Source of the DNA: Paraglaciecola sp. L3A3
GTDB taxonomy: Bacteria; Pseudomonadota; Gammaproteobacteria; Enterobacterales; Alteromonadaceae
Direction: 5' to 3'
NCBI RefSeq assembly: GCF_009796765.1
Contig: NZ_CP047023.1
Span: 3,827,501-3,891,500, forward strand
DNA: 64,000 nt
The notes beneath the pieces were generated by a model. It worked only from the letters and a program-made list of their open reading frames with translations, did no database searches and had not been told where the DNA came from. Below, piece after piece: positions 39,345 to 55,768 of the stretch. A program made the position numbers and the translations under genes. Position 1 is the first letter of the stretch. Each line of letters opens with the position of its first letter.

Positions 39345-42300
39345 TTACTCTTTCAGTTGGTTAAGCACTTTATTTGCTGCATCTTTTTGTTCTTGAGTCC
39401 CTTTTTGGATAATTTCATCGAGTAGTTCTTTAGCAGAACTTTCTTCACCTATTTCGATATAAGCATGAGCTAAATCTAATTTAGCGCCAAGACCTTCATC
39501 AGCATCGACGTCTATCATTTGTAAGTCATCATCTACACTCACAAAGGGTTCTAATGGCATATCTAAATCAAGTGCTTGTTCTTCATCTTGCTCACCAGAC
39601 ATACTTTCGTTCAATAACGCCTCAACATCAAGGAAGTCATTAGACTCAAGCTCACTTATTTCTGGTACTTCTTGAGGGGAATCATCCAACAAAGAAGTAA
39701 TATCGATACCCGTATCGAACTCATCCTCGTCTCGGTCAACCGTATTATCGATAGATTCCAACATTTCATCAAAGCTAGACTCTTCTAATTCATGTAATAA
39801 TTCTGAATCATTATCGTCTTCAGTTTCTGCTTTACTGTCGTCTAACCAGTCTCCTAGACCTGGCAAATCATCCAACTCATCAACGGGATATATATTATTT
39901 TCTGAAGGCTCTTTATCAAATTGCCCTAAAGCTTCATCAAGGGCAAGGTCATCAAAATTGGATATATCAGCAATATCATTGGCTTTTTCAGGCTGTTTTT
40001 TAGCTTCACTTTTTTCTTCTGAGAAAAAGTCACTTGCGGCAGCACCAAACTCTAAATCATCTAACGAACCTATAGAATGACTCTCATTTGACGTTAGATC
40101 TTCTAATACCTCATCTAATTCTTCTTTTTCAAAGTCTTCTAAGGCTTTTTCGAGCTGATCTTCATCTAAAGCGCTTTCAACTGATTCAAGTTCATTAAGC
40201 TCAGCGGGATCAAGCTCAAAGTCATCGGGATCAAGGTCATCGGCTTCTGCCCTGCCTTCTGATTCCTCTTCAACTGCTGGCTCAGCTTCAACTGTTGGCT
40301 GATCTTCAACACCTGGTTCCTCTTGAGCTGAAGACTCTTCTTGGGCTGAAGGCTCTTCTTCGACTTCTGGTTCTTCTTGGGCTGAAGGCTCCTCTTCGAC
40401 CTCTGACTCTTCTTGAGCTGAAGGCTCTTCTTCGACTTCTGGCTCTTCTTGGGCTGAAGGCTCTTCTTCGACCTCTGGCTCTTCTTGGGCTGAAGGCTCT
40501 TCTTCGACTTCTGGTTCTTCTTGGGCTGAAGGCTCTTCTTCGACCTCTGACTCTTCTTGGGCTGAAGGCTCTTCTTCGACTTCTGGTTCTTCTTGGGCTG
40601 AAGGCTCTTCTTCGACCTCTGGCTCTTCTTGGGCTGAAGGCTCTTCTTCGACTTCTGGTTCTTCTTGGGCTGAAGGCTCTTCTTTGACCTCTGGTTCTTC
40701 TTGAGCTGAAGGCTCAGCTTCAACTGTTGACTCTTCTTGGGCTGAAGGCTCTTCTTCGACCTCTGGTTCTTCTTGGGCTGAAGGCTCTTCTTGGGCTGAA
40801 GGCTCAGCTTCAACTGCTGACTCTTCTTGGGCTGAAGGCTCTTCTTCGACTTCTGGTTCTTTTTGGGCTGAAGGCTCTTCTTCGACCTCTGGGTCTTGTT
40901 CCGCTGAAGGCTCATTCTCGACTACCGGTTCATCTTCAACTACTGGCTCTTGATCAGCTGAAGGCTCTGCTTCGACTGCTGGCTCAACTTCAACTGTTGG
41001 CTCAGCTTCAACTGCTGGCTCAGCTTCAACTGCTGACTCTTCTTGGGCTGAAGGCTCTTCTTCGATCTCAGATTCTTCTTGGGCTGAAGGCTCTTCTTCG
41101 ACGAATGGCTCAGAAAGCTCGTCCAATACTTCATTTAATAAATCATCATCCACTTCATCAGCCAAATCATCTAACTGCTGAATTCCGTGTTGTACATCTT
41201 CGGGCGCGACATCTTCGTCTTCATCATCGTCCGGCAGCATAGAGCGCATTTGTTCAACTTGTTCTAACTCATCAATTAAGTTACCAGTAACTTTGTCTAA
41301 CTCTTCATTTGTCGCAGAAATTTCTTCATCTAATTTTTGTAGTGCGTCTTCATTGATTTCTTCTGAGTCATCCACTAAAGGATTTTCAGGTAAGTCAATT
41401 TCTTTAGAACCCTCAAGTAATTCATCAATGCTAATTTCAGGTTGTTCGTTTTCATCTTCAACCTGCTTAATTGCTAAATCATTACTATCATCGCCTGATG
41501 CCAACGAATCACCTTCTGTAGGATCCATTTCATCCACATCATGAATCAGCATGTCTACACTTTCTTCGGTGACAACATCTTCTTCAGCAGTTATTTGTTC
41601 GTCAACAGCATTATCATCGGTCAATTCTGTTAACAGATCATCGTCTTCATCTTCACCAAACAAGTCATCCAACACGTCTTGTTCTATAACACCGGCATTA
41701 TCTTCATCCAATAAAGCATCGTCTAATTCATCAAATACTTCTGCATCTTCACTCAGCAACTCATCGATTTGGTCTTCATCTAATGCCTCTTCTAGTTCAT
41801 CAGCTAGTACATCATCCAAAACATCATCTTCACCAAATAAATTATCATCATCTAGTTCGTCTTCTTCAAGCTCATCAGATAATTCGGCACTCAATGCATC
41901 TGATAGATCATCCATTTCTGCTGTATGTTTATCTAATGTGATGTCATGCTCAAAATCTTCTTCAGATTCCACATCAATATTGGCTGACTTTCTTTTCACT
42001 AACCAATATGCAAAACCTGCGAGTAAAAATATAACGGGTAACATAGATAGCAGAATTAGATTAAGGGGATCATCTAACCAAGAGGTTTCTTGTTGTTTAA
42101 TTTGCGTTTCTTTTTCAGATTGTTGTAATCGTGCCTGAGCTAATAATTCTTCAACACTTTTGTCAATTTGTTCAACTTTCTCACTACTTTTTTCCCCCTG
42201 AGTACGCATATTGGTAAGATCTGCATCTACCTTCGCTAAACGTTCAAATAACTTTTTATTCTCATCAAGGATTGACTGAACGCTACTAATCGATTCGGCA

Positions 42301-42860
42301 AATTGTTTCCTGATGGCCATAAATTGGCGATTTTGTGCCTCATTAATATCACCTAATTTCTGTTCGAGTAATTCCTTAGTTTCAGTCAGTTCTGTTTGAC
42401 TAGCCGCAGCAACTTCGATAGCTGCAGCTGTTTTGTCGGCTGGTTTACCTGATTGATTTGATTGCCAATTTTGAGCGTCAGAGTCCGCTCGTTTAAAAGC
42501 TTGTTGTTTATTAACCCTTTGTATATAACTCTCAGAGGGTAATCTCAGAATAGCTCCGTCTTTTAGCAGATTAAGATTATTCTCTTCAAATGCATCCGGG
42601 TTAAGCTCAAAAATGGCTTGCATAACCTGATAGATTGATAAGGATTGGTTTTCTCGATAACGTTGGGATATCTGCCATAAAGTATCCGAGGACTCAATTG
42701 GACCATAGGTCATCCCAGAAAATTGAGTACCAGTACCTTTCGGACCTTTAATCCTAACATTTTGAAAATCAGCGGCATAAACGGTAAAAGCGAAGAAGGT
42801 TAATATCGCAACCAGCCTCACCGCTATTTTTCGCAAATTCATAGAGTTCCTTGTATTCAA
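39345..42860 (-). CDS. fimV: FimV/HubP-family polar hub protein with long acidic repeat
   Basis: The 1171-residue protein has a signal peptide (cleavage near VYAADF), the FimV N-terminal periplasmic LysM-like region (YGPIESSDTLWQISQRYREN...LPSESYIQRVN) and a coiled-coil segment at about 150-250. One membrane helix (LILLSMLPVIFLLAGFAYWLV, about 265-285) is followed by a very acidic cytoplasmic region and a C-terminal FimV TPR-like domain (LDLAHAYIEIGEESSAKELLDEII). FimV/HubP organises cell poles, type IV pili and chemoreceptors. The acidic region contains a tandem 12-residue repeat. It lies downstream of the envelope operon rather than directly after asd. Confidence 0.9.
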   Translation of the reverse strand: MNTRNSMNLRKIAVRLVAILTFFAFTVYAADFQNVRIKGPKGTGTQFSGMTYGPIESSDTLWQISQRYRENQSLSIYQVMQAIFELNPDAFEENNLNLLKDGAILRLPSESYIQRVNKQQAFKRADSDAQNWQSNQSGKPADKTAAAIEVAAASQTELTETKELLEQKLGDINEAQNRQFMAIRKQFAESISSVQSILDENKKLFERLAKVDADLTNMRTQGEKSSEKVEQIDKSVEELLAQARLQQSEKETQIKQQETSWLDDPLNLILLSMLPVIFLLAGFAYWLVKRKSANIDVESEEDFEHDITLDKHTAEMDDLSDALSAELSDELEEDELDDDNLFGEDDVLDDVLADELEEALDEDQIDELLSEDAEVFDELDDALLDEDNAGVIEQDVLDDLFGEDEDDDLLTELTDDNAVDEQITAEEDVVTEESVDMLIHDVDEMDPTEGDSLASGDDSNDLAIKQVEDENEQPEISIDELLEGSKEIDLPENPLVDDSEEINEDALQKLDEEISATNEELDKVTGNLIDELEQVEQMRSMLPDDDEDEDVAPEDVQHGIQQLDDLADEVDDDLLNEVLDELSEPFVEEEPSAQEESEIEEEPSAQEESAVEAEPAVEAEPTVEVEPAVEAEPSADQEPVVEDEPVVENEPSAEQDPEVEEEPSAQKEPEVEEEPSAQEESAVEAEPSAQEEPSAQEEPEVEEEPSAQEESTVEAEPSAQEEPEVKEEPSAQEEPEVEEEPSAQEEPEVEEEPSAQEEPEVEEEPSAQEESEVEEEPSAQEEPEVEEEPSAQEEPEVEEEPSAQEEPEVEEEPSAQEESEVEEEPSAQEEPEVEEEPSAQEESSAQEEPGVEDQPTVEAEPAVEEESEGRAEADDLDPDDFELDPAELNELESVESALDEDQLEKALEDFEKEELDEVLEDLTSNESHSIGSLDDLEFGAAASDFFSEEKSEAKKQPEKANDIADISNFDDLALDEALGQFDKEPSENNIYPVDELDDLPGLGDWLDDSKAETEDDNDSELLHELEESSFDEMLESIDNTVDRDEDEFDTGIDITSLLDDSPQEVPEISELESNDFLDVEALLNESMSGEQDEEQALDLDMPLEPFVSVDDDLQMIDVDADEGLGAKLDLAHAYIEIGEESSAKELLDEIIQKGTQEQKDAANKVLNQLKE
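40317..41103 (-). repeat. 36-bp tandem repeat inside fimV
   Basis: The word GCTGAAGGCTC (plus strand) recurs exactly every 36 bp from 40345 to 40777, thirteen phases in a row. An 18-bp step follows and then further more degenerate copies up to about 41100. In protein it encodes EEPSAQEEPEVE, 12 residues per unit, with minor variants (EES, VKE). Near-identity of neighbouring units suggests ongoing expansion and contraction by slippage or recombination, always in frame. Confidence 0.95.
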
Positions 42861-43171
42861 AATATTTAAATTGCTGTTTTGGCTATTAATTCATGAGTAG
42901 CAGTACTTGGGAGGCGCCACTAATAATTCTCAGCTAAGTTCTCATTATCATAAACAATAAATTGTCAGAAAATTGACTATTTGCCATAACGTAGCAATTC
43001 GTATTCCAAATTGACTGCTGGAGTAAATTCTTTTGAAACTATAAACTAGATGGGCTATTTGATCTAGAATACTTATACTAACTCCATTAAATAAATGTAC
43101 ACTCAGCGAGAATTTAAAAGCGCATAATCAAGGCGCTAAAATGAGCTCTTTAAATCAACATCAAGCATTTA
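42861..43171. other. 311-bp intergenic region between the envelope operon and fimV
   Basis: No gene is seen. It contains a degenerate copy of a dispersed repeat (43074-43150, listed separately) and presumably the fimV promoter near 42865-42960. It separates fimV from the last gene of the eight-gene operon. Confidence 0.5.
43074..43150 (+). repeat. Dispersed repeat end, copy at the fimV side of the envelope operon
   Basis: Starting TATACTAACTCC and containing TACACTCAGCGAGAATTTAA (43098-43117), this stretch matches without gaps about 30 of 39 positions of a plus-strand copy at 55416-55454. It also resembles the inward-reading right end of the element at 55458-55722, with near identity over the CACTCAGCGAGAATTTAAA core and a following AAGGCGCT word. 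It looks like a partial or decayed copy of the same element. Confidence 0.7.
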
Positions 43172-44137
43172 TCAGTCGAGTACTATTATAACTGCGGGTT
43201 TAGCAAAAAAATGATGAGAAGCCAGATCTAATAAACGGTCTCCGTTTTGTTTATTGAGAATAATAGCAGTGGCATTATCAACTTGGCTCGCACCTTTAAT
43301 TAAAAGCGGGTTGTCACCCACAATTGGGTGATTTAGAGCAAACTCTAAACTACGGGAAAAAAGTGAAAGTAACTTTCCAGATTTCACTATGCTATTTTTG
43401 TCTTTACTTGCAGGATAAATAGTTGCGCCGTCAGGATGCTGAATATTTGGCGCTAAGGATGGCAAAAATCGATGCCCTCTTACATCAATAATTAACCCGG
43501 TGGGTTGAGGTTCTGTTCGAGCATTGGTTAAGGCTGAATTTTCTAATAATACGCTCTCCTCCAATTTACTCACTCGCTGATCTAAACGCTGTAAATCTGG
43601 GCTCCAAGGTAAACTAGTTGTTAGCTCATTTTGTTCCGCATAGGCAGTGGAAATGATGCTATTGAAAAACCTATTAATAAACAAAGACACTGAATGTTCA
43701 GTCTGTACTTCATTTTGATAGATACTATTTGATAACTGACCTGAAACAAAGACCCCCATAGTGACCTTGCAGGTATTATCTTCCCCCATATCTCGGCTGA
43801 GAATACGAGCCCCTTTTATGACGCCTTCAACAGCACTTTTGACAATATCATATTCTGCAGCATGGTGAGAAACACTGGTAGAAACCGTTACTCTAACTCC
43901 ATTTGTGGCTTCAATTAAATTACGCTGAGCATCAGTTACCGCAGCTCGACAGGCCAATAAACGCCCTACCTCTATGCGCTTCCCTTCAGGAGCCACACCA
44001 AATCCCTCGGCGGTGACCATACCCGAACTCCAATTCATATTGCTAGTTGTCGTCAGCCATTCAGTATAAATACCAGCTTGTTGAGCAAATATGGATGAGC
44101 TAAAAAACAACGCTAAAATTAAAATATATCCTTTCAT
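43172..44137 (-). CDS. Exported LPP20/FlgP-like protein (operon gene 8)
   Basis: The 321-residue protein has a signal peptide (MKGYILILALFFSSSIFAQ). Residues about 38-135 have the LPP20/FlgP-type pattern: ITAEGFG-like VTAEGFGVAPEGK, then ACRAAVTDAQRNLIEATNGVRVT, a VKSAVEGVIKGARIL helix and CKVTMGVFVSG. In the FlgP outer-membrane ring family this domain assembles into rings. The C-terminal half (about 210-321) has PTGLIIDVRGHRFLPSLAPNI and KPAVIIVLD and is not recognised. It is the last gene of the operon, starting 2 bp after the preceding stop. The exact function is unknown; a periplasmic or outer-membrane structural subunit is likely. Confidence 0.7.
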   Translation of the reverse strand: MKGYILILALFFSSSIFAQQAGIYTEWLTTTSNMNWSSGMVTAEGFGVAPEGKRIEVGRLLACRAAVTDAQRNLIEATNGVRVTVSTSVSHHAAEYDIVKSAVEGVIKGARILSRDMGEDNTCKVTMGVFVSGQLSNSIYQNEVQTEHSVSLFINRFFNSIISTAYAEQNELTTSLPWSPDLQRLDQRVSKLEESVLLENSALTNARTEPQPTGLIIDVRGHRFLPSLAPNIQHPDGATIYPASKDKNSIVKSGKLLSLFSRSLEFALNHPIVGDNPLLIKGASQVDNATAIILNKQNGDRLLDLASHHFFAKPAVIIVLD

Positions 44138-44139
44138 TT

Positions 44140-46056
44140 TTAATACCTTACCTTACCTAAAACACTCATTGGAGAAGCTGCGGGCAGCCAATTATTATCG
44201 CTGGCTTCCACTTGATAAATTGACGAACTCTGAATATGAAACGGAAAGTTTTCTGTAAATTGGCTACCTTCTATATTCACTCTAGCTTGATCGGTTATTA
44301 TCAATCCACTAGTGTTACTGCCACTTAAAAAACAATTTCTAATATGTACTTGAGCCATATTAGCCACAGTTATTGCTGAATACTGGCTATTAGTAATAGA
44401 ACAATCAACAATTGCAGGGCTTCCTTTTATGACTTCAATACCTATACCAGCGTTTTCAATATTAACGCTATTTAATTCAACATGCTCGTTGCTATCTAGG
44501 CTTATAAAAGTAGGGGCAGTGATAATTTTCGATAAAGGCTGAAGTTGAATAGGTAAACCGGCAAAAGTGAATAAACTACCTTGAATGTGCAAGTTTCCCG
44601 CATTGGTAAATTGAAATTCAGTACCCGGCTCTATATACAAGCCACTGCCTGCTACTTGGGTGACTTTTTTATCGACAATATATGGACCTTCACTTTTTAG
44701 TAAAATAAACTGGCCGTCTATAGTGCTAGGTAATCTAGATTTTTTTATAACTGTGGCGCTGTACATACTTGCTAAAGGATAAACAACTTTATTTATGAGT
44801 GTTTCTTCACTTTGATTTCCAGCCTTGTCTATGGCGACAATACTTAGTTTTATCGGGGCAAACGCTTTTAAAGTATGCTCCCAAACAAACTCAGTCTGAT
44901 AAGTTTCAAATAACTGTCTACGAATTTGCCCTTCAATCAAAATGACTTGATAAAGTAAATTCGGCTCACTATTTTGCCAAGTTAACGTCACTCTATCTGG
45001 GCTAACTTTGTCCTGTAGTAAAGTCACTGGTTTAGGTGCTTCATTATCAAAACTTAGTAAACCAACTGAGCTAATATACTTGCTAGTCATGCCAGAACTA
45101 TCACGCAATATTCCAGTTAACATTCGCTCAGAAGCATTCCAACTGTGATCAACAGAAATACTTGTGGTATAGATCCCAGGTTGTTGCTCTATTAAAGGAA
45201 AAACTTGATTAATACCTTCAATCGTTACACTTGCAAGTTTGTTAGCTTCACCTTTAATTCCCACTCGAAGCACATCACCATATTTTAATACTTGCTCAAT
45301 ACCATCATGTAACACAGTCTCGATGTAGGAATAGTTAACTTCTTGAAACTTGGTGGGTTGTGGAAATTCATTAGCTATTTTTCGACCCAACTTATCTGCC
45401 ACAGCTAATAAATTTTCATCATTAAGATGCCAAGCGGTAACCGCAATATTGTATAACAAGCCGAGAGCATTGACTGATACTCCCCCCTCTCTGGAAATCT
45501 CTTCAAATTCCTTCGACCAGATTGCCTCTCCCTTAACATTAACTAAGGTAATTTTTACAGCAAAAGTGATCTGCGCATAAATTCCGACATATAATTTATC
45601 GTAATCCAGCACCTCAACAAATAATAAGCCATCCACATCCAATAAATTGGTCAATAACTCTGCATTTTTAGGTGTCAATTCTTGCTCATTCGAAAGTATC
45701 GCTAATCGATTATCGATATCTTTGATATGTGAAAATCTATAATTTGAACTAGCTAAATGTCCATATAGGGTGCTACGCAAAGTTTGTGATGCTTCTTGTT
45801 CACTTGTACTATTTTTAAAAGGTAAGATGGCAATCGATTGAGGTAATGAAGGTTTAATTTCGGCTTCAAGTACTTCAGCGACAACAGTGACTTCTTCAAT
45901 TTCTGGTAGCTCTTTATCCTCTAGAACTGAATTTATTTCATTCGTTTTATTACTAACAGCTAAAGGCTCAACTTGATTCACACTGCCGCAACTGACGATA
46001 AACACGGTACATAAAACAATGAAACTTAGATTTAACAGATTTCTAGATATAGGCAT
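44140..46056 (-). CDS. GNA1162-like lipoprotein with FN3-like and beta-helix domains (operon gene 7)
   Basis: The 638-residue lipoprotein has the lipobox VFIVSCGS (Cys23). Residues about 70-230 resemble the GNA1162/DUF799 and CsgG-related fold (SIAILPFKNSTSEQEASQTLRSTLYGHL, then VDGLLFVEVLDY). An FN3-like module follows at about 335-420 (APKPVTLLQ...VTLTWQNSEPN). The C-terminal region has parallel beta-helix character, with rungs such as GIGIEVIKGSPAIVDCSITNSQYSAITVANMAQVHIRNC. The mix of an outer-membrane-ring fold with a surface-type beta-helix is unusual. Probably anchored in the outer membrane; the function is not known. Confidence 0.65.
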   Translation of the reverse strand: MPISRNLLNLSFIVLCTVFIVSCGSVNQVEPLAVSNKTNEINSVLEDKELPEIEEVTVVAEVLEAEIKPSLPQSIAILPFKNSTSEQEASQTLRSTLYGHLASSNYRFSHIKDIDNRLAILSNEQELTPKNAELLTNLLDVDGLLFVEVLDYDKLYVGIYAQITFAVKITLVNVKGEAIWSKEFEEISREGGVSVNALGLLYNIAVTAWHLNDENLLAVADKLGRKIANEFPQPTKFQEVNYSYIETVLHDGIEQVLKYGDVLRVGIKGEANKLASVTIEGINQVFPLIEQQPGIYTTSISVDHSWNASERMLTGILRDSSGMTSKYISSVGLLSFDNEAPKPVTLLQDKVSPDRVTLTWQNSEPNLLYQVILIEGQIRRQLFETYQTEFVWEHTLKAFAPIKLSIVAIDKAGNQSEETLINKVVYPLASMYSATVIKKSRLPSTIDGQFILLKSEGPYIVDKKVTQVAGSGLYIEPGTEFQFTNAGNLHIQGSLFTFAGLPIQLQPLSKIITAPTFISLDSNEHVELNSVNIENAGIGIEVIKGSPAIVDCSITNSQYSAITVANMAQVHIRNCFLSGSNTSGLIITDQARVNIEGSQFTENFPFHIQSSSIYQVEASDNNWLPAASPMSVLGKVRY

Positions 46057-46074
46057 AATTTCTCAATTCAAACT

Positions 46075-47556
46075 CTAATCAAAATGGGTATATTGCTGTT
46101 TTCTAGCAAGAATTTTGCGTAAATAATTTTTAGTTTCTTCGGCAGGTAAGTTTGCCATTAACTGCTCGTATGTTTGTTGAGCTTGCAAGTTATTGATTTT
46201 TTGTACGGCTAAATTGATACTTTTTTTACCAGTAAATGTTTTAGCCAAATTGCCTACACCTGTGTTGTAACTTGCCAACATACAATACAATTTGCTTTGT
46301 TGATTTTTGATCCCACGCAGATAACGTTTAGATAAAAGATGTAAATAAGTTGTGCCAAGTAATAAATTATTATTTTGATCAAACAAATAGGCAGGGCTAA
46401 CGATTTGTTTTTTACCATACAAAAACTCGTAAGCGTCTACTCCAGCAGTATTGGGCACCAACTGCATTAAGCCAAAAGCCGGCACTGGTGACATCGCCAT
46501 TGGATTAAAACTCGATTCAGTTTCAATTAAGGCCAAAATCAGTGATACATCCAATTGATACTTGTTGGCTAATGAACTGACTGTATCTAATTTACCTTCA
46601 ATAAGGTTTTTCTGATAATTGTTTAAATAGGGAATAGTTAATACTAAACGCTTAACAGATTGCTTAGTTTGTAACACTAATGTTGGAGCATTTATAACCA
46701 AGGCATTTTGTGCAGAAACATTAATAGATTTAGTAATATCCGTTTTGATATTCTCAGTTATATTCACGGCTGGATTATCTAATATTTCTTTGGCAGCTAA
46801 GTCTGTAGACTGAAGAATAAGACTGGGTTCGATTATATTTTTTGCTTTTAAAAATTTGCTGTTTTGAATGTCTAAATTAACTGCTGCTGGTTTAGAATTA
46901 TGATTGCGAAAAGATGATTGCGCTAGTTCAGCATCCTCCGCAGACTGAGAAATATTATCTACAGATAGGTTTTCAATTATTTTAGCTGTATCAGCCGCTA
47001 ATATTTGTTCAACGTCAACATAGGGTTCACTTTTTATTTGCGGTTGAATAAGGCTGAGTTGAGCCAAATCGGTCTGTTTTAACTCTTGTTGTAAGCTTTG
47101 TTGAAAAACATCAACTTGTTGTAATTGCGATTTGTCACTTTTTGCTATCTTCGCTGCAAAAGACTGTAATTGAAGTAAACTTTTTGCAATATCACCGTCG
47201 ACAATAGTTTCAACTTGATACACGCCACCTTTGAAATCAAAAGTGGCTCGAGTAGAAAACGACTCATCATAAGTTGTCCAACTTTGTGCTGCAGGTAAAA
47301 TAATATCTTCGTGCCAATTAACAGATATCTTCTGAGTCAGGCCTTTATAAGCTCTATCTACTGCATTTTTGACTTGTATAAAACGTGTTTCAAGAACTTT
47401 ATCTTGTTGCTCAAAATGTTGCTCTAATTGGGCATCCAAGGCATCAAATTCATTATCTAAATCATCAATACTTTGAGCTTGGGTGAAATTAATGCAACCT
47501 TGACTGAGCAAGGCAACCAATCCAACAAATTTGCCGAATTGTTGATATCTATTCAT
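46075..47556 (-). CDS. MltC-like lytic transglycosylase (operon gene 6)
   Basis: The 493-residue exported protein has a signal peptide ending near FTQA-QS. A DUF3393/MltC-N-like region at about 60-130 (WHEDIILPAAQSWTTYDESFSTRATFDFKGGVYQVETIV) is followed by a linker of about 200 residues and a C-terminal SLT domain (about 330-490). The SLT domain has the catalytic Glu in LALIETESSFNP, then AFGLMQLVPNTAG and ASYNTGVGNLAKTF. Such enzymes cut glycan strands to make 1,6-anhydroMurNAc and often open the wall for trans-envelope machines. Its start overlaps the previous stop by 4 bp (ATGA), so it is translationally coupled. Its presence supports a wall-spanning assembly. Confidence 0.85.
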   Translation of the reverse strand: MNRYQQFGKFVGLVALLSQGCINFTQAQSIDDLDNEFDALDAQLEQHFEQQDKVLETRFIQVKNAVDRAYKGLTQKISVNWHEDIILPAAQSWTTYDESFSTRATFDFKGGVYQVETIVDGDIAKSLLQLQSFAAKIAKSDKSQLQQVDVFQQSLQQELKQTDLAQLSLIQPQIKSEPYVDVEQILAADTAKIIENLSVDNISQSAEDAELAQSSFRNHNSKPAAVNLDIQNSKFLKAKNIIEPSLILQSTDLAAKEILDNPAVNITENIKTDITKSINVSAQNALVINAPTLVLQTKQSVKRLVLTIPYLNNYQKNLIEGKLDTVSSLANKYQLDVSLILALIETESSFNPMAMSPVPAFGLMQLVPNTAGVDAYEFLYGKKQIVSPAYLFDQNNNLLLGTTYLHLLSKRYLRGIKNQQSKLYCMLASYNTGVGNLAKTFTGKKSINLAVQKINNLQAQQTYEQLMANLPAEETKNYLRKILARKQQYTHFD

Positions 47557-47990
47557 TTATTAGCCGTTTTTTGTTGCTGTATAAAAGACTCCAATTCAGC
47601 TACTGTAGAGCGTTGTAAACAAGGCTCTGCTTCTTTCGTTACACAAATTGCCATCACTACTTCAACTGATATGCTCTGCTCATCAGCTGTCACAGTGTGA
47701 TTTTTTTCAAATGCACCATTCAAAAGCGACTTAACTCTAGTGGCAACTATATCACTACTTATTTCATACTCTTCCATAGTGGTACCGCCGGTTAAACGTA
47801 CCCCTTTCAGTTGTTCAGCTAAATTTCTTTGTGCGTCGACTGTTGCCGCCCGTTTAGCCATCATTTTGGCCTGAGCCTTAATTTTAAAGACACTCAAATC
47901 CACTGTACCAAAACCACTGGCAGTAATTAATCCTTTTTCTGCATAAGCAAAAGGAGAACTCAATAACAGCATAATTAAAAAGATTCGCAT
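47553..47990 (-). CDS. Small exported LPP20/FlgP-like protein (operon gene 5)
   Basis: The 145-residue protein has a signal peptide (MRIFLIMLLLSSPFAYA) and a single LPP20/FlgP-type domain: LITASGFGTVDLSVFKIKAQAKMMAKRAATVDAQRNLAEQLKGVRL, then VATRVKSLLNGAF and SVEVVMAICV. It shares the AATVDAQRNLxExxxGVR core with operon gene 8. FlgP homologues form an outer-membrane-associated ring around sheathed flagella, so a ring subunit is a reasonable guess. Two C-terminal cysteines (AICVTKEAEPCLQ) may form a disulfide. AGGAAATT precedes the ATG. Confidence 0.75.
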   Translation of the reverse strand: MRIFLIMLLLSSPFAYAEKGLITASGFGTVDLSVFKIKAQAKMMAKRAATVDAQRNLAEQLKGVRLTGGTTMEEYEISSDIVATRVKSLLNGAFEKNHTVTADEQSISVEVVMAICVTKEAEPCLQRSTVAELESFIQQQKTANK

Positions 47991-47991
47991 A

Positions 47992-48351
47992 TTAATTTCC
48001 TTTTTTTGCTGCTTTCAACTGAGTCACTAATTGACCGGCTAAATCAATACGCACGCCTTCCTCAATTGAACTCACTAATTGATCAATAACATCTACTTTA
48101 AATGCACTGGCTAATAAGTATTTTTTGGCTTGTAATAATTCTTTTCTGCAAGCTAATGGGGCGTATTCCATAGCATCTCTAAAGCTAGTGTTGGCTAAAA
48201 TCACTCTGCCATTTTCAAAAACACAAGTTTCATACTTCTTTTTAATTTGCTGCAACTCTTGGCTATTTAAAGGCTGTGATGTCTGACTTTGATTTTCAGC
48301 CCATGTAGATGCTGAGTAAAAAAGCATAATAATCAAACAATTTAATTTCAT
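47992..48351 (-). CDS. Small exported protein of unknown function (operon gene 4)
   Basis: The 119-residue protein has a signal peptide (MKLNCLIIMLFYSASTWA). The mature part is mostly helical with two cysteines (YETCVFENGR and APLACRKEL) and a C-terminal helical stretch (DVIDQLVSSIEEGVRIDLAGQLVTQLKAA). I recognise no family. It is sandwiched 9 bp after the FN3 gene and 1 bp before the FlgP-like gene, so it is very likely a functional part of the operon, perhaps a small periplasmic adaptor or chaperone. AGGAAT precedes the ATG. Confidence 0.7.
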   Translation of the reverse strand: MKLNCLIIMLFYSASTWAENQSQTSQPLNSQELQQIKKKYETCVFENGRVILANTSFRDAMEYAPLACRKELLQAKKYLLASAFKVDVIDQLVSSIEEGVRIDLAGQLVTQLKAAKKGN

Positions 48352-48360
48352 GAAGTATTC

Positions 48361-51300
48361 CTATTTATCTTCTACCAAGATATTGACTTGGTCGGAAGGC
48401 GAGCTTTCAAGTAAGTCCGTATCCACCGCAATGATGTAATAACAGTAACTTTTGTCAGCTTCTATATTTTTGTCAATGTAACTTAATACTGGGCTATTTA
48501 CTGTTGCCAGTTTACGCTCTCTACCACATGTTTTACCGCGATAAATATCATAATGTTTGATGTCAGGCTCTAAGTTAGCTTGCCAATTTAACGCGGCAAT
48601 GGCATTTTCTTGAACAACAGAAACCCCGCCGACCTTGCTCGGGATAGCTTTAGTAGTCGCTGCAATGATAGAGCTTTTAGGACCTTCAACTTTAAAGCTG
48701 TTGAAGGCCGAAATACGATACTGATATAAGGAGCCATGCTCTAACTTAGAAAAAAATCCACCTTCATCAACATAACTGTTTTCGTTAACTTTGAGCGTAC
48801 TCAATTCTTCGAGCTCTCCATCTTTTTCTAACCGGTATACCTTATAACCTGCAACATCGGGGTCATTAAGAGGAGTCCAACTTAAACTGACTTTTTTCAC
48901 TTGTTGACTAACTGCTAAAAAGTGTTGCGGTGCCCGTGGCAGTGCTTTAGTTCGCACTTCAATTATATTTGATGTGCCGAGTTTTTGTTGTTTATGAAAC
49001 GCAGTCACCTGATAGAAATAGCGCTTTTCATCCAATAAATTTTTATTATCTAAATAATGACTCTGATTCGTGGTTTCTATATTTTGCCAAGTAATATTGT
49101 TCTCAGATCTTTGGATCAGATAAGATTCTACTTGTTTGTTGTTTGTCCAGTTGATTGAATTTTGTCGTAACAAATCTTGTTTACTGACGGTAAGCTTTAT
49201 ATCCAAAGGACTAAAACCTGTTTCTACATCTGAATCTTCGCTACTTAATAAATCCTTGTCTAATAAATTAACTTTGTATTCAAATGAAGCAAAAGGCAAT
49301 AATTCCAGATCAACATATTGGGTCAACTTGGCATCAATTTCAGCAATTAAAGACCAATCAACTTCATGCTTCCAACGCCTATAGATAAGCGCATTTTTTA
49401 GGTCTGTTTCTGCCCCCGTTTTCCAATTCAATAAAACTTGGTGTTCTTTAGTTTGTACCGTTAAATCAGTAGCTCTATTGGGCAATGCTTTTGAATGAGC
49501 TTCAATTGATGGGCCGATAGGTCCAACTTCATCGTAAATATTTCGACTTGCAATAGCATATCGGTATATCTGGCCATGGCTAATGCCCCCGGTATCCACC
49601 GAGTCGATATAAGTGCTGGCTTCTACTACTGGGATTTCTGCAATTAGGTTATAAGAAGTAAAATTATCAAGCTGGCTTGCTCTATACAGCAAATAACTTT
49701 TCAAATCGGGGTCATTTGTAGCAGCCCATGTTAAAGTCAATTTTCCTGCCTCACCACTTTTAGCAATAAGCGATTCTGGAGCAGGTATATCCTTTGTTTT
49801 CATAGATATTAAATTGGATTCAGAAACAACTTGGCCTTGATATATAATTGATAATTTATATTCGTATACCAAGTCGTCAAGTAAACCTAACTTATCAGTA
49901 TAGGATGTAGTTTGGCCCTCAAATTCAGTAATTAAAGACCAAGGCTGCCCTTTTTCTCGCCTCCATAACTGTAAGCTATCAGCCACAGAAATAGCTGGCC
50001 AAGCTAGATTAACTTGTCTAAGAATACCATCTGGTTGAGGAATAAAGTCCACTGAGTTTTGGGTCATCACTGGCTCTGACTGAACGGCAACACTTTGCAA
50101 ATTGTCTTGGTCGATAACCGTCACTCTATATTCGACTGTCCCTTTAGGTAATAATTGGCTATCAAGATAATAAAGTGATTGTCCGTCAATAGTGGCCAAA
50201 GCTTGCCATTGAAAATGCTGCCAACGCCTTTCCAGAAAATAACTAGAGGCGCGCTGCTGAGCATTTGCAGTCCAGCTCACTCTCACCTGCTCGGAACCGA
50301 TTTGAGTATTTACTGCTAATACTGCTTTGGGCGCAGGTTTGGTACTTGCTCTCAAAACAGGACTTAACTCTCCAGAGCTACCCTGCAAATTGATAGCGGC
50401 AACCGCATAATAATAATCTTTATTGTCTGCATCTAATGAAGTATCAACATAGCTATTTGCTTTTGTATCAATCACTTCATCTAACTTATATAAACGTATA
50501 TCGGCTTGATCGGTATAATCAGCGCGAAAAATTGCATAACCTTTTAATGCCGCATCGTCATATGGCTGCCAACTAATTTGTACTTTTCTGGCTAATCCAC
50601 TTTTAACTTTAACCTGCAAAGGAGCCGGTAAAGGGCCTCTGCTACTCAAGGTAATGGCAGTACTCATTGAAGAGGAAGAGTAGCGATCAAAAACACTTAA
50701 GGCGTACTGAAAACGTTGGCCGTCTGCTGTAAATTCAGAATCAATATATTCAGTCTGAGTTATACCTTGAATTGTTTTTATACGTCGCCATTCAGTGGCA
50801 CCTTGATGGTCGCGCCGATACAGATGATACCCTGCTCCTGATGATGCCGCTTTCCATTTGAGTAATACCTGACGGACGCCAAAATACCCAGTATTAATTA
50901 ATTCAGTTGGGATGACAGGGCTATGATCATAAATACTTGAAACATTACCAAGACCATCCAGATTAACGGCTCTAACAGCATATTCAACCGGACCGTTTAT
51001 TGCCTCTGATTGTAAATCGACAATTTTGTACTGTTTAATACTGCTACTTTGCATATCAGCTGATTTGGCATCAGGTATTGGCCCTTCGATTGTATTCACC
51101 ACAATCCAAGCTTGGCCTTTTTCACGTCTAATCAATTGATAATGAGTGATATTCTTTTCTGCATTTTGAGCTGATGGTAAAAACTCTATTTCAATCCCTT
51201 TAATCAACTGCGTAACAGACAATACTGCGGGGGGAGCTAAGTCTGACACTTCCTCAACTGCCACTGCAACCTGAGTAATTGTTTTACTTCTAAACTCTTC

Positions 51301-52068
51301 ACCTGCTTCATTGAGCAATGATATTTGGTAGTAAACATTACCATTAAGATCTTGTATTGGATCATAGTATTCAGTATCTATAACACTAGTCAGATAGCTA
51401 AAAGGCCCCTGCTTTTCGCTTGCTCGAAACACATTAAAACCTAGACTTTCAGGCGCAAAAGTCTCAAGTTGCCAACTTAACTTCACCTGCCCATTTATCA
51501 CAGATGCTGTCATATTTGCTAACCAATTAGCTTCATCTTGATTTTCACTGCCTTGTGATGAAATAGTCAGGTAAGACTGAATAGCGGTATCAATCGCGAC
51601 ACCAATTTCAGTACCGCGATTTAACACATCTTGTTGATTAATAAAACTAAAAGACCAGTTAGCTATTTGTTGCTGTGAATCTGTCGCCACTAAAGCAATA
51701 TCACTGACGATAGAGCCCTTCTGCCGAGATACTGTGCCTATCACTACAAAGTTAACATCAAGCGCAACGCCAGCATTGATAGCCTGTTCAAGCTCAAAGC
51801 TTTGAACAATTCTATTACGCATCAAAGTGGCTTCCATTTCACGTTGATTCAACAAACTTAAATTAGCCTTTTTACGTAATTCATTACGCACAGCATATAC
51901 AACATCATTTTCGATCCCTACCACATCCATACTGGTGGCAGTGAATTGAAATATCGCTATATTTTGCTGCTTTGCAGTGGCGACATTCATCGCCCCTAAG
52001 GTAAGCAATATAAAATATATGAGTGAGGAAACACTCAGAATTTTATTTTTGATTAACGCAAGTTTCAC
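48361..52068 (-). CDS. CsgG/FlgO-like protein with about eleven FN3-type repeats (operon gene 3)
   Basis: The 1235-residue exported protein starts with GTG and has a signal segment of about 33 residues. Residues about 35-185 form a CsgG/FlgO-type domain (NIAIFQFTATSMDVVGIENDVVYAVRNELRK, then LLNQREMEATL and VNFVVIGTVSR). Then come about eleven tandem fibronectin type III-like units of 90-100 residues, each recognisable by a buried Trp strand (VKLSW, VLLKW, VQISW, VRVSW, LTLTW, VLLNW, VSLSW, AALNW) and a GYxIYR-like strand. Together these suggest an outer-membrane ring domain with a long extracellular or periplasmic stalk. No named homologue is known to me. Confidence 0.75.
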   Translation of the reverse strand: MKLALIKNKILSVSSLIYFILLTLGAMNVATAKQQNIAIFQFTATSMDVVGIENDVVYAVRNELRKKANLSLLNQREMEATLMRNRIVQSFELEQAINAGVALDVNFVVIGTVSRQKGSIVSDIALVATDSQQQIANWSFSFINQQDVLNRGTEIGVAIDTAIQSYLTISSQGSENQDEANWLANMTASVINGQVKLSWQLETFAPESLGFNVFRASEKQGPFSYLTSVIDTEYYDPIQDLNGNVYYQISLLNEAGEEFRSKTITQVAVAVEEVSDLAPPAVLSVTQLIKGIEIEFLPSAQNAEKNITHYQLIRREKGQAWIVVNTIEGPIPDAKSADMQSSSIKQYKIVDLQSEAINGPVEYAVRAVNLDGLGNVSSIYDHSPVIPTELINTGYFGVRQVLLKWKAASSGAGYHLYRRDHQGATEWRRIKTIQGITQTEYIDSEFTADGQRFQYALSVFDRYSSSSMSTAITLSSRGPLPAPLQVKVKSGLARKVQISWQPYDDAALKGYAIFRADYTDQADIRLYKLDEVIDTKANSYVDTSLDADNKDYYYAVAAINLQGSSGELSPVLRASTKPAPKAVLAVNTQIGSEQVRVSWTANAQQRASSYFLERRWQHFQWQALATIDGQSLYYLDSQLLPKGTVEYRVTVIDQDNLQSVAVQSEPVMTQNSVDFIPQPDGILRQVNLAWPAISVADSLQLWRREKGQPWSLITEFEGQTTSYTDKLGLLDDLVYEYKLSIIYQGQVVSESNLISMKTKDIPAPESLIAKSGEAGKLTLTWAATNDPDLKSYLLYRASQLDNFTSYNLIAEIPVVEASTYIDSVDTGGISHGQIYRYAIASRNIYDEVGPIGPSIEAHSKALPNRATDLTVQTKEHQVLLNWKTGAETDLKNALIYRRWKHEVDWSLIAEIDAKLTQYVDLELLPFASFEYKVNLLDKDLLSSEDSDVETGFSPLDIKLTVSKQDLLRQNSINWTNNKQVESYLIQRSENNITWQNIETTNQSHYLDNKNLLDEKRYFYQVTAFHKQQKLGTSNIIEVRTKALPRAPQHFLAVSQQVKKVSLSWTPLNDPDVAGYKVYRLEKDGELEELSTLKVNENSYVDEGGFFSKLEHGSLYQYRISAFNSFKVEGPKSSIIAATTKAIPSKVGGVSVVQENAIAALNWQANLEPDIKHYDIYRGKTCGRERKLATVNSPVLSYIDKNIEADKSYCYYIIAVDTDLLESSPSDQVNILVEDK

Positions 52069-52083
52069 AATTAATCAATCAAA

Positions 52084-54075
52084 TTAATTAGTATTAAAAC
52101 GATAGCGAGCTAAAATATTATTTATCCTGTTTTTAGCTTCAATAGTGGTTGGAGAAGCCGATACAGACTTCAATTTTTCGTTATAAATTGCGTAAGTATA
52201 ATATTCAACAGCAATATCTAATTCAGCTCTACGTTCACGATCTTGTCCTTCGTTGAAATAATAAGTTTCAAGTTGTTGCAAAGGTCGTAATACTTCACCG
52301 GCCATATGCTCTACAATTTGTTCGGTTAATTGCTGCATTATTTCAGTGTCTGTAGGTACTTCCATAGGGTCAAACTTAATGCCTGCATCCTGTACTCCTG
52401 CATTCGATGTATCTTCAATTTGAATTTTTCGTTCAATGGTATCGACCCGCGTATTCTCGCCAGTCAGAACATTGACAATACGAAATGACAGTTGTAAAAA
52501 ACCTACTTTTTTAGTTTGAGTAACATCGTATTCTTTTTCACCATACTCTGGAACCATGATTTTAGCTAAGGGAGCGGCTCTTAGCTCCTTTTTCGAGGGG
52601 TCAGGATTCACCGCTTTCCAGTTTAAGTATTCAATATTGTCTTCAATTTTTTTACCTATTTCGTAACGAATTGTTTTAGTGCTTGAAGCTGTATTTTCAT
52701 CAACTTTATATAGCAATACCGACCCCATAATCGCGTAATCGATACCATATATTCGCCCCATTTCCTTGGCAGTTGTTTCGGAGACCACGCCAATTTGTCC
52801 AAGCTTCATCTCTTCAAGAATAGATTTTAAATTTTCTCTTTCTAATATTTTAATATCACTACTGGCGTTATTGAAAAGTCGTGAAATTAAGTTATTTGCC
52901 ACTATAACCCCGGCATCATCACTACTTGAAGGGCTATTAAAATCAAAAACAGCAATAGAGCGACGGGCTCGACCGTAAATATTATCTTCAACTGTGCGTA
53001 TTTTAGTGAACAAATCAGGATATGCGGGGTTAATCTCATTGATAGTTTTTAACAATACTAACGCGATAGCATATCGGCCATTTTGCTTATATGTATCAGC
53101 TGTGTACTCTGCTTGTTGAGATAAAGAGTCACGTAGGTTTTCAAGTTTGCTAGTATCTAATGCATTTAAATTTTTCAACTCTAAATACAAAGATTTTGCT
53201 TCAATCAAACGACCTTCAGTCATTGATTCAAGAATTGAATTCGCAATAAACTGTGCTTGTTTTTGTTTTGCAGTTACTAATAAATCTCGACATTGGTTGT
53301 TACCCGTTCTGTAACTGAGAGCCATCTCGCAGTTTTTAATCACCTCACTCCAATCACTAGTTTGTTGGGCGATTTTAACCTTAGCTAAAAAATATTCTTG
53401 ATTGTCATTGCGCTCAACTTTCTTTAACAGACTAAGTGCAATTGGATTATTCGGGATGACATTTAATAAATCAGACAGGTGTTGTCTGGCCAAAGCAAAT
53501 TGATCATTTTTTATTGCCGTATTAGCCTGTCCCAAATAATATTTATTTGCCTCGGTAACACTGGTTTTTAGACGGCTTTGTACATCTTCATAATTTTCAA
53601 AACGGCTAGCAATATCACTTAGCAAGCTATGAGCTTGGCCCCAGTTTTTAGTGTCCATTGCCATTTTGGCCTTTTCATACACTTCACTTAACTGGCTATA
53701 TAAATCACTTCTTTTAGTATTTATTAAGTCCGTAGCTTGGACCATACTATTATTTTTAATGCCCACTTTTTCAAGATCTTTAATTAAAGATTCAGCCTCG
53801 TCCAGCTTAGCTTTAGTCGCGTCTCCTGTTAGTAATTGGTTAACTTTTTTTAGGTTCACTTGTATATATCGTGCTTTTACATCGGCTAATTTGGCCACAT
53901 ATTTTTCATTATCTGGATCTTGGCCAACAGCTTGTTTCAGATAAGCAATCGCCTCATCGAATTGATTGACACTCGCTAATTGAATTGCTGTATCAAACTC
54001 CTTCGTTCCTGACGTTGTAGAACCACAGCCACTAAGAGCAATTAAGATAGCTGAAGTGATAAGAGCTTTTTTCAT
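52084..54075 (-). CDS. CsgG-like lipoprotein with TPR-like N-terminal region (operon gene 2)
   Basis: The 663-residue lipoprotein has the lipobox ALSGCGS (Cys17). Residues about 25-370 are helical, with TPR-like pairs (FDEAIAYLKQAVGQDPDN and several A/L-rich helices). Residues about 375-620 look CsgG-like: RRSIAVFDFNSPSSSDDAGVIVANNLISRLF, then LERENLKSILEEMKLGQIGVV, GIDYAIMGSVLLYKV, and LQLSFRIVNVLTGENTRVD. CsgG forms the curli export pore. A late helical tail (about 625-655) carries another TPR-like motif. It probably forms an outer-membrane oligomer; whether it is a pore cannot be told. AGGAAAACC precedes the ATG. Confidence 0.75.
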   Translation of the reverse strand: MKKALITSAILIALSGCGSTTSGTKEFDTAIQLASVNQFDEAIAYLKQAVGQDPDNEKYVAKLADVKARYIQVNLKKVNQLLTGDATKAKLDEAESLIKDLEKVGIKNNSMVQATDLINTKRSDLYSQLSEVYEKAKMAMDTKNWGQAHSLLSDIASRFENYEDVQSRLKTSVTEANKYYLGQANTAIKNDQFALARQHLSDLLNVIPNNPIALSLLKKVERNDNQEYFLAKVKIAQQTSDWSEVIKNCEMALSYRTGNNQCRDLLVTAKQKQAQFIANSILESMTEGRLIEAKSLYLELKNLNALDTSKLENLRDSLSQQAEYTADTYKQNGRYAIALVLLKTINEINPAYPDLFTKIRTVEDNIYGRARRSIAVFDFNSPSSSDDAGVIVANNLISRLFNNASSDIKILERENLKSILEEMKLGQIGVVSETTAKEMGRIYGIDYAIMGSVLLYKVDENTASSTKTIRYEIGKKIEDNIEYLNWKAVNPDPSKKELRAAPLAKIMVPEYGEKEYDVTQTKKVGFLQLSFRIVNVLTGENTRVDTIERKIQIEDTSNAGVQDAGIKFDPMEVPTDTEIMQQLTEQIVEHMAGEVLRPLQQLETYYFNEGQDRERRAELDIAVEYYTYAIYNEKLKSVSASPTTIEAKNRINNILARYRFNTN

Positions 54076-54084
54076 TGGGTTTTC

Positions 54085-55149
54085 CTAATTCTTTGCACTA
54101 ATTGAAATTTCTGAACCTTTAAAAACACTAACTTCGAAGGGTACATTGCCATCACCACTGAGCTGTTTTAATTGCTCATATAGTTGTTCTGGCCACCCTT
54201 GATATTGCGCAAAAAAACTAGTTTTAGACGCTTCTTTATTTTGAATTTTTAAGCCATTAAGTCCTACTACTAAGTTTTTTAGTGATGATTCCATAGCTTG
54301 CAATTGATCAGTATTATTTGCTAACAAATGAATCATGACTGTTTGTGAAGTGTCATTTAACCACACCACTTTAGTATCTAGATTGATTCGTTGGGCCACT
54401 CTATAGGATAGATCGACAGCCATTTTTCGAAATGCGCTCAAACTATTAGAACCCGCTGATTTAGCAGACTCAGCCGAACTAGAAAGAGCAATTCCCGTTT
54501 GTGCATTGAGTAATTGACTAGAAATAGAAAGCTGATTAGAACTCAGTTCCATTCCTTGAAATTGGCTTTTTGCAACGATAGCAGAAATGTTAGAACGAAT
54601 AATAAATGTAGGTGAAACAGAAGAGTTAATAGCAGTATCGATAACAGTAAAACCAATTTTTTGCAGGTTTTTTGTTAACTCAGTGACAAAAAAAGAGTAA
54701 CTTGTTAGAGCATGCTCCCCCTGATTACTGGCCAGAGCAATTGCAATAGAAGGTTGTTTATACCATTTATATTTTTTAAGTTGTTGATTAACGCTAGTTG
54801 TCGCTTTTTGCTCATCAATAAACGCTTTAATATTAACTTGATAAGTATCTTCATCTATTTTTTTTTCGTTAATAATTGTATAGCGATCGAGCTGACCTTT
54901 GGCTGTGGAGTATATTTTCTCTGAGGCAAGCATGAAGTTATTAGTTTCTGTTCTGGCACTAATATAACTACCCAATAGTTGTTCTACAGCGATCCGTTTA
55001 GCGTCTTCTATAGCATTTTTACGGGCATCAGCAACATTATTATCTATGATGGCGCCAAGACCTTTAACCTCAATATCACGAGCAGCAACTGAGAAACTAA
55101 TATTGATAACACAGACAAATAAAAATACTAATTTGAAACTATTCAACAT
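54085..55149 (-). CDS. Exported FlgT-N/LPP20-like protein (operon gene 1)
   Basis: The 354-residue protein has a signal peptide (cleavage near SVAARD). Residues about 24-115 carry the FlgT N-terminal-type pattern: IEVKGLGAIIDNNVADARKNAIEDAKRIAVEQLLGSYISARTE, then a YTIINEKKIDEDTYQVNIKAFID strand pair. In Vibrio FlgT this domain belongs to the H-ring around the flagellar basal body. The second half (about 130-354) has alternating helices and strands, possibly another ring-type domain. It is the first gene of the operon; AGGGATTAG precedes the ATG. It is probably a periplasmic ring component. Confidence 0.7.
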   Translation of the reverse strand: MLNSFKLVFLFVCVINISFSVAARDIEVKGLGAIIDNNVADARKNAIEDAKRIAVEQLLGSYISARTETNNFMLASEKIYSTAKGQLDRYTIINEKKIDEDTYQVNIKAFIDEQKATTSVNQQLKKYKWYKQPSIAIALASNQGEHALTSYSFFVTELTKNLQKIGFTVIDTAINSSVSPTFIIRSNISAIVAKSQFQGMELSSNQLSISSQLLNAQTGIALSSSAESAKSAGSNSLSAFRKMAVDLSYRVAQRINLDTKVVWLNDTSQTVMIHLLANNTDQLQAMESSLKNLVVGLNGLKIQNKEASKTSFFAQYQGWPEQLYEQLKQLSGDGNVPFEVSVFKGSEISISAKN

Positions 55150-55457: not shown

Positions 55458-55722
55458 ATACCAATCCATATTGATAAGTGATCTCTCAGAATGCATCCAG
55501 CGGTTTTTGAACAAGGCGTCGGTTTGCAGGAATGGTTGTTCCCTTTCAAATACCGAGAACGCAGGGCAAAAGCCGCTGGGGCATTCCTTTCAGGCGAGTT
55601 TTAAATGAGCTTACTCTGTGTTGCTCGAACTCAAAAGAGCACCACTATTCCTTCATTCAAGCGCCTTAATTAAGCTCATTTAAATTCTCGCTGAGTGCAC
55701 ACTTATCAATGCGGATTGGTAT
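55458..55722. mobile_element. MITE-like element with inverted ends
   Basis: The left end ATACCAATCCATATTGATAA is repeated at the right end as the reverse complement of ATACCAATCCGCATTGATAA, followed in both by an AGTG...CTCAG word. The element is about 265 bp, non-coding, and its interior can form several hairpins. It is about 300 bp upstream of the operon start and 78 bp downstream of the asd stop. The ends resemble dispersed repeats I remember from Alteromonadales genomes. A two-base TA target duplication is possible but not certain. Confidence 0.75.
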
Positions 55723-55734
55723 TATTAATAGGCA

Positions 55735-55768
55735 CATAAAAAAACCGGAAATCAAAGATTTCCGGTTT
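55735..55768 (-). terminator. Intrinsic terminator of asd
   Basis: On the minus strand a perfect 12-bp stem (AAACCGGAAATC / GATTTCCGGTTT) around a 3-nt loop runs into a TTTTTT tract. It lies about 32 bp after the asd stop and shows that asd is not transcribed into the envelope operon. Confidence 0.93.

Follow-up and report, generated by a model that had tools for sequence, protein, structure and literature searches.

An eight-gene Paraglaciecola operon of FlgP/FlgT- and CsgG-type proteins, accompanied in some relatives by an MCE transporter

Introduction

What might be built by eight exported proteins that are encoded head to tail and that include relatives of flagellar ring components? The question is raised by an operon of Paraglaciecola sp. 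L3A3 that lies in the window analysed here, a stretch of 64,000 nucleotides at positions 3827501-3891500 of contig C1 (NZ_CP047023.1) of the complete 5.31-Mb genome (G000). Its genes are called g1 to g8 in order of transcription, and coordinates are those of the window. An earlier reading of the DNA alone (the sequence-only reading) had proposed an undescribed outer-membrane ring, secretion or appendage system. Here, the recurrence of the operon in other genomes, the domain families of its products and its genomic setting were assessed. The gene set was found to recur beyond the window, and an MCE/Mla-type ABC transporter, unforeseen by the sequence-only reading, is present in the cluster of relatives. 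We consider it quite possible, though short of probable, that the operon specifies one outer-membrane-associated ring-and-stalk complex, and that this complex, when complete, is docked on an MCE transporter of its own.

The operon and its MCE-bearing relatives

The eight open reading frames (ORFs) all lie on the minus strand, from g1 (54085..55149) to g8 (43172..44137), separated from g1 to g8 by 9, 15, 9, 1, -4, 18 and 2 bp. The eight-gene operon was confirmed, at the coordinates and in the head-to-tail layout first given for it; of the two stop-start contacts also described, one is a true overlap (4 bp, g5/g6), the near-contacts elsewhere being of 1 and 2 bp. As proposed, all eight proteins begin with an export signal, as judged by eye and not by a signal-peptide program.

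The order g1-g2-g3-g4-g5-g6-g7-g8 is the same in the window and in loci L016, L018 and L019. This recurrence of the same eight genes, in the same order, in three further loci is beyond chance, and bears out the expectation that the set would be conserved in other genomes. A g2 homologue was found in 20 of 395 sampled genomes of the family, three of them matching over the TPR part only; full-length g2 was present in 17 genomes, the window's own included. Within the genus, the cluster (scored by g2) was present in 4 of 22 genomes. The closest named relatives by g2 were a Paraglaciecola metagenome-assembled genome (74% identity), then Glaciecola and P. arctica (54-57%). In the protein collection, 362 g2 homologues were found at E<=1e-30, and the best 120 of the 362 came from Alteromonas, Marisediminitalea, Aestuariibacter, Paraglaciecola, Glaciecola, Catenovulum, Colwellia, Pseudoalteromonas and Rheinheimera, together with names of higher rank.

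Genomes G1090, G1080 and G978 carry a collinear 14-gene form, g1-g2-g3-g4-g5-g6-g8c-tprTM-lipoTPR-mlaE-mlaF-mlaD-g7-g8, and two further loci, L025 and L027, show the same order as far as mlaD, at which the examined stretch ends. Marisediminitalea aggregata and Alteromonas lipolytica are species with the 14-gene form. The transporter genes of L026 matched MlaE (3.2e-32), ABC_tran (4.5e-10) and MlaD (4e-11) in Pfam. In G864, g1-g4 are divergent from g5-g6-g8c-tprTM-(an unassigned gene at the lipoTPR position)-mlaE-mlaF-mlaD-g7-g8. Four Catenovulum loci have the order g5-g6-g8c-tprTM-(lipoTPR position)-mlaE-mlaF-mlaD-g1-g2-g3; the lipoTPR position was recognised by profile in one of the four, and no g4, g7 or g8 was seen within the stretches examined. 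Altogether, of the 17 genomes in which g2 is full-length, 8 have MCE genes in the cluster. When 20 genomes were searched, a divergent MlaE (E 1e-28 to 1e-34) was detected in 8, in every case inside the cluster. Likewise, MlaD of the operon type (E<=1e-120) occurred in 8 of the 395 family genomes, the same eight that have MCE genes in the cluster, with four more weak matches. This MlaD has one MCE domain and a long helical tail, with a match to Mce4_CUP1 below the cut-off.

Among the four weak MlaD matches is that of another Paraglaciecola, G010 (1.1e-69), which has no g2 match. Its locus (L097 9895-17475) holds lipoTPR-mlaE-mlaF-mlaD, an LPP20-type gene (0.0022, weak and below the cut-off), an unknown gene, an MltC-like gene (SLT 2.1e-24) and a second LPP20 gene (1.6e-09), and independently joins MCE, MltC-like and LPP20-type genes. 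A papain-family protease gene lies ~3 kb beyond it (L098 1780-3003).

The reverse situation was seen in three Catenovulum-group genomes (L056-L058), in which the site of the 11-gene cluster holds only a g2 relative of 428-430 residues, a TPR lipoprotein without the CsgG-type domain. Of the genes that flank this site, those for a regulator-like protein and an outer-membrane protein are common to the three genomes and 4 of 4 full-cluster loci; thiolase-like and FadB-like genes are shared with 3 of the 4 loci. All four flank names are our own assignments. The block is mostly gained and lost together, with P. arctica and G1027 (below) as exceptions. That the gene set acts as one unit is well supported, with exceptions, and the idea of a single machine put forward by the sequence-only reading is upheld to that extent.

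Domain composition of the eight proteins

Single sequences were compared with Pfam at its curated cut-offs, and family profiles were additionally run against solved chains. The profiles identified g5 (47553..47990, 145 residues) and g8 (43172..44137, 321 residues) as members of the FlgP family. The g5 profile matched 9hmf chain C at 8.4e-12 and a chain named FlgP in 8z5n at 1.1e-10, and a joint profile of g8 and g8c matched the same two chains at 1.9e-18 and 4.9e-11. Chain C of 9hmf is named 'Lipoprotein, putative' and is here taken to be FlgP; PMC12222027 presents 9HMF as the periplasmic scaffold of the Campylobacter jejuni motor. Since family profiles match solved FlgP-type chains, g5 and g8 are, on profile evidence, FlgP-family proteins, as had been suggested, even though their single sequences scored 17.1 and 18.3 for LPP20, both below the cut-off of 25.9. 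The last gene of the operon, g8, has in addition a C-terminal domain resembling Treponema Tp0624. The first, g1 (54085..55149), encodes an exported protein of 354 residues whose FlgT_N domain just passes the cut-off (8.4e-07; 29.9 versus 28.8 bits); its family profile matched 9hmf chain C weakly (E 6.9e-5).

Two further proteins had been described as CsgG/FlgO-like. This was borne out for g2 (52084..54075, 663 residues), a TPR lipoprotein with a C-terminal domain of the CsgG/FlgT-M/TolB-N/PelC type: it scored 40.8 bits against the CsgG cut-off of 20.8 (2e-10), TPRs were also matched, and Cys17, within a lipobox-like motif, is invariant in 18 of 18 aligned rows. For g3 (48361..52068, 1235 residues), an exported protein, the assignment shifted, its N-terminal domain being weakly nearer to LpoB, FlgO and TolB_N than to CsgG. 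At E<=0.1, members of its 17-strong family matched LpoB (7), FlgO (3) and TolB_N (3), all weakly, and the window copy matched none of the three at that threshold. The remainder of g3 is an FN3 array (fn3 3.8e-16), for which an iterated profile counted 11 repeats in the window copy, as estimated before, and 11 in L016. Two Glaciecola copies have 10 and 11 repeats, 12 copies of the Catenovulum/Alteromonas/Colwellia group have 8, and the copy of G1027, linked to a type VI secretion system (T6SS), has 4. The lipoprotein g7 (44140..46056, 638 residues) combines a GNA1162-like domain (1e-08) with a beta-helix (Beta_helix 3.6e-10), both passing in Pfam as had been read, and a region of chitinase type. 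Its family profile matched GNA1162 4hrv at 4e-4 and a chitinase chain at 1.6e-7, the matched region of which we take to be FN3-like. Cys23 of g7, also in a lipobox-like motif, is invariant in 10 of 10 rows.

These three proteins raise the alternative of a secretion pore in the outer membrane or an appendage on the cell surface. Here g3 or g7 would be exported as a surface fibre or adhesin through a CsgG-like pore made of g2, perhaps with g3. The CsgG match of g2 in Pfam, the 11 FN3 domains of g3, the beta-helix of g7 and the apparent export of all eight proteins would all fit, FN3 domains and beta-helices being common in surface proteins. Foldseek also found CsgG chains with g2, the best at 9.9e-5 and rank 15, behind TPR proteins. 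In a search confined to the eight operon proteins, none matched the Pfam families of curlin, CsgE or CsgF. We regard this alternative, which retains the secretion or appendage role of the sequence-only reading, as unlikely.

The exported protein g6 (46075..47556, 493 residues) was confirmed as MltC-like, with both SLT (3.8e-22) and Mltc_N (6.5e-06) passing. Against the NCBIfam equivalog model for MltC it scored 159.4 bits (E 1.3e-46) where the cut-off is 375, and it is therefore termed an MltC-like lytic transglycosylase and not MltC. Together with the LpoB- and TolB-like matches, such an enzyme could point to wall or envelope maintenance, with g2, g3 and g7 as LpoB/TolB-like regulators, g6 remodelling the wall and the FlgP-like proteins tying the outer membrane to it, without any conduit. 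A housekeeping function agrees poorly, however, with the patchy spread (20 of 395 family genomes) and with the length of the FN3 arrays, and the MCE linkage would be only partly explained, which makes this account unlikely.

The remaining protein, g4 (47992..48351, 119 residues), is small, exported and of no known family, in line with the small unknown of the sequence-only reading. No credible Pfam match was obtained; C43 and C68 are invariant in 13 of 13 rows. Homologues numbered 127 at E<=1e-5, none of the best 120 of which has a Pfam domain, and one among the matches listed is named Halieaceae.

Exceptions to the full arrangement

Several observations weigh against a single ring-and-stalk complex that works with its own transporter. 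Nine of the 17 genomes whose g2 is full-length, that of the window included, have no MCE genes in the cluster, and lipid transport is therefore not the whole story for those genomes. Among the operon's eight genes Pfam identified no MlaE, MlaF or MlaD, and the single MlaE of G000 lies at 4.63 Mb. In the Colwellia-type genomes G792 and G908, g1-g4 are divergent from g5-g6-g8c-g7-g8 with no MCE genes. In two P. arctica genomes the locus retains g1-g2-g4 alone, divergent from genes for a PP2C phosphatase and a Ser/Thr kinase (L014 15440-18952; L020 5165-8611), and in G1027 (L055 8994-18910) g2 and a short g3 lie directly upstream of tssA-tssB-tssC-tssE-tssF.

The structural evidence for rings and pores carries similar reservations. 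The g2 model has strands of 31-33 residues at 447-479 and 505-535 without consistent hydrophobic alternation, that is, a hairpin without a clear barrel pattern. In the FlgP-type family, ring formation correlates with a hairpin insert, according to PMC12222027. This insert is kept in the 16 sampled g1, g5, g8 and g8c sequences, which align to the genome's own FlgP without gaps in an alignment that included no non-ring-forming relative as a control. The g8 structure model is poor across the insert.

A maximally supported clade (100/100) of six rows in the g2 tree contains the window and L016 as a pair (98/99) together with P. arctica, Glaciecola and G1027, and none of these clusters has MCE genes. 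Among the other twelve rows are every cluster with MCE genes and the two Colwellia-type clusters without them. The tree is unrooted, with two long branches flagged, and does not polarise gain versus loss of MCE genes in the window's branch.

The arrangements in P. arctica and G1027 suggest another function, that of an accessory envelope module for a T6SS or for kinase/phosphatase signalling, acting as a periplasmic scaffold or sensor and not as a transporter. The P. arctica kinase has PEGA and FGE-sulfatase domains (by Pfam on L014), and the kinases and phosphatases of the two genomes are 72% and 65% identical, respectively, so this arrangement is conserved. (The g1 of P. arctica BSs20135 is split into two ORFs, L020 8926-9974 and L015; it is a single ORF in the other P. 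arctica.) Among the 20 genomes searched, TssK was found in 5, including G1027, where it lies further along the contig that carries the cluster, and both P. arctica, where it lies on other contigs. By contrast, it was not found in G000 or in the three 14-gene genomes, and no such kinase or phosphatase was present among the scanned ORFs flanking the operon in the window. On balance, a T6SS or signalling module is quite unlikely.

Genomic setting

In agreement with the sequence-only reading, no flagellar family beyond the operon's own matched in the 27 window ORFs scanned. The flagellar FlgT and FlgP genes of G000 itself are at 1.556 Mb and its FlgH at 1.567 Mb, that is, 2.3 Mb from the operon at 3.87-3.88 Mb, and the set is not the flagellar locus of this genome. 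These positions bear on a further alternative, in which the operon is a paralogous accessory set supplying extra H-ring or basal-disk parts that modify the motor under some condition. In its favour are the relationship of g1, g5 and g8 to FlgT and FlgP, and the presence of FlgH in 16 of the 17 cluster-bearing genomes (the exception is a 78% complete assembly); given the latter, absence of flagella is unusable as a test. Against it stand the distance from the native FlgT, FlgP and FlgH genes, the lack of other flagellar families nearby, the partnership with an MCE transporter in 8 of 17 genomes and the restriction of the cluster to 4 of 22 genomes of the genus. We therefore hold a flagellar accessory role to be quite unlikely.

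The operon has as neighbours pdxB, asd, a FimV-like gene, a GGDEF/EAL gene and others; the names pdxB, asd and FimV are ours, Pfam having given no FimV match. In all 14 other genomes of the genus examined at this site (L076-L089), asd is followed immediately by the FimV-like gene and has pdxB on its opposite side, and these uninterrupted sites include those of G004 and G014, which carry g genes elsewhere. As none of the 14 has the operon between asd and the FimV-like gene, the window operon was most likely inserted there. Inverted copies of a 75-nt dispersed repeat bracket it: the left copy (43070..43144, plus strand) is 76% complementary to the right copy (55653..55727, minus strand), which lies between asd and g1. 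The 19-mer core of the repeat was found twice in the window, where 0.03 occurrences were expected; at <=1 mismatch the genome contains 21 copies of it (reversed control, 0). The repeat is possibly similar to a miniature inverted-repeat transposable element.

Downstream of asd, a terminator-like hairpin (55742..55768, minus strand; a 12-pair stem followed by a T-rich tail) separates asd from the operon, which is therefore probably transcribed separately. The hairpin is a consensus match only, one of 11 such sites found where 8.3 were expected. The FimV-like protein (39345-42860, 1171 residues) contains a long array of near-identical acidic repeats of the EEPSAQEE type, and ORFs on both strands at ~40166-41242 look like shadows of this array.

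Discussion

The reading that we favour is of a complex built of FlgP/FlgT-type (SHS2) and CsgG/FlgT-M/TolB-N-type proteins. In such a complex, g5, g8 and g1 would form stacked or concentric periplasmic rings beneath the outer membrane, ring assembly being suggested by the hairpin insert that correlates with ring formation in the family. The lipoproteins g2 and g7 would anchor the rings, with the TPR superhelix of g2 as a docking arm, while g3 would serve as a long FN3 spacer across the periplasm or to the surface. Passage of the complex through the wall could be provided by g6, opening it locally. In the 14-gene form of the three relatives, the complex may dock on its own MlaE permease, MlaF ATPase and long MlaD, giving an envelope-spanning path for lipids or other hydrophobic cargo, a cargo suggested by the presence of MCE genes. 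The window would then hold an outer-membrane-side form without the MCE unit. How this form might be powered we infer from its gene content: it encodes no inner-membrane or ATP-driven component, and would therefore be either a passive outer-membrane structure or one that depends on a partner from another locus, for example the single MlaE system at 4.63 Mb.

A more specific proposal is that of an undescribed, envelope-spanning lipid-transport machine: an MCE transporter would be joined to an outer-membrane ring complex of the protein families that make up flagellar H-rings and basal disks, equipped with a wall-cutting enzyme and an FN3 spacer of its own. The machine would have undergone modular gain, loss and trimming in Alteromonadaceae and relatives, the window holding its outer-membrane half. 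This proposal we regard as possible but doubtful. The hand-over of lipids to or from the outer membrane by MCE systems is poorly understood in most cases. If the proposal is true, a genetically defined outer-membrane partner would be available for an MCE system, in the form of ring proteins of the FlgP/FlgT and PelC/TolB types together with a stalk and a wall hydrolase. Proteins familiar from the outer-membrane rings of flagella would, moreover, be seen to work in a non-flagellar machine, a point of relevance to the evolution of flagellar rings.

The gene system appears, by its domain assignments, to be new as a combination, although all its proteins except g4 belong to known superfamilies. 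No description of the combination was found in topic searches of open-licence papers. Each known system considered has at least one defining feature that was tested for and that the window set does not show. Type VI secretion differs in that G000 has no TssK, and g2-g3 stand beside tss genes only in G1027 among the loci examined. With MltC, g6 shares the SLT catalytic domain and the Mltc_N region, but it has a long extra linker, a score below the equivalog cut-off and a signal peptide that, by eye, is not of the lipidated kind. The GNA1162 lipoprotein corresponds to the N-terminal domain of g7, to which an FN3-like region and a beta-helix are added. The CsgG curli channel and its relatives PelC and TraT, all of which form rings, share with g2 a domain superfamily and a lipoprotein character, whereas g2 adds a TPR superhelix and its pore hairpin pattern is not evident.

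The MCE transporters (Mla, PqiB, LetB/YebT and mycobacterial Mce) are matched by MlaE-MlaF-MlaD in the cluster of 8 of 17 genomes and by none of these genes in the window version; we know of no MCE locus in which a transglycosylase accompanies FN3 proteins or proteins of the FlgP/FlgT/CsgG type, and the open-licence papers searched yielded none. Finally, with the flagellar H-ring, T-ring and basal disk (FlgP, FlgT and FlgO of Vibrio and Campylobacter) the cluster has in common g5, g8 and g8c, FlgP homologues by profile, the FlgT_N domain of g1, a g2 domain with the fold of the FlgT middle domain, and the hairpin insert in the sampled g1, g5, g8 and g8c. It differs from them in containing no other flagellar genes, in residing in a host with separate flagellar FlgT and FlgP genes, and in adding a wall hydrolase, an FN3 array and a beta-helix lipoprotein, joined in some relatives by an MCE transporter.

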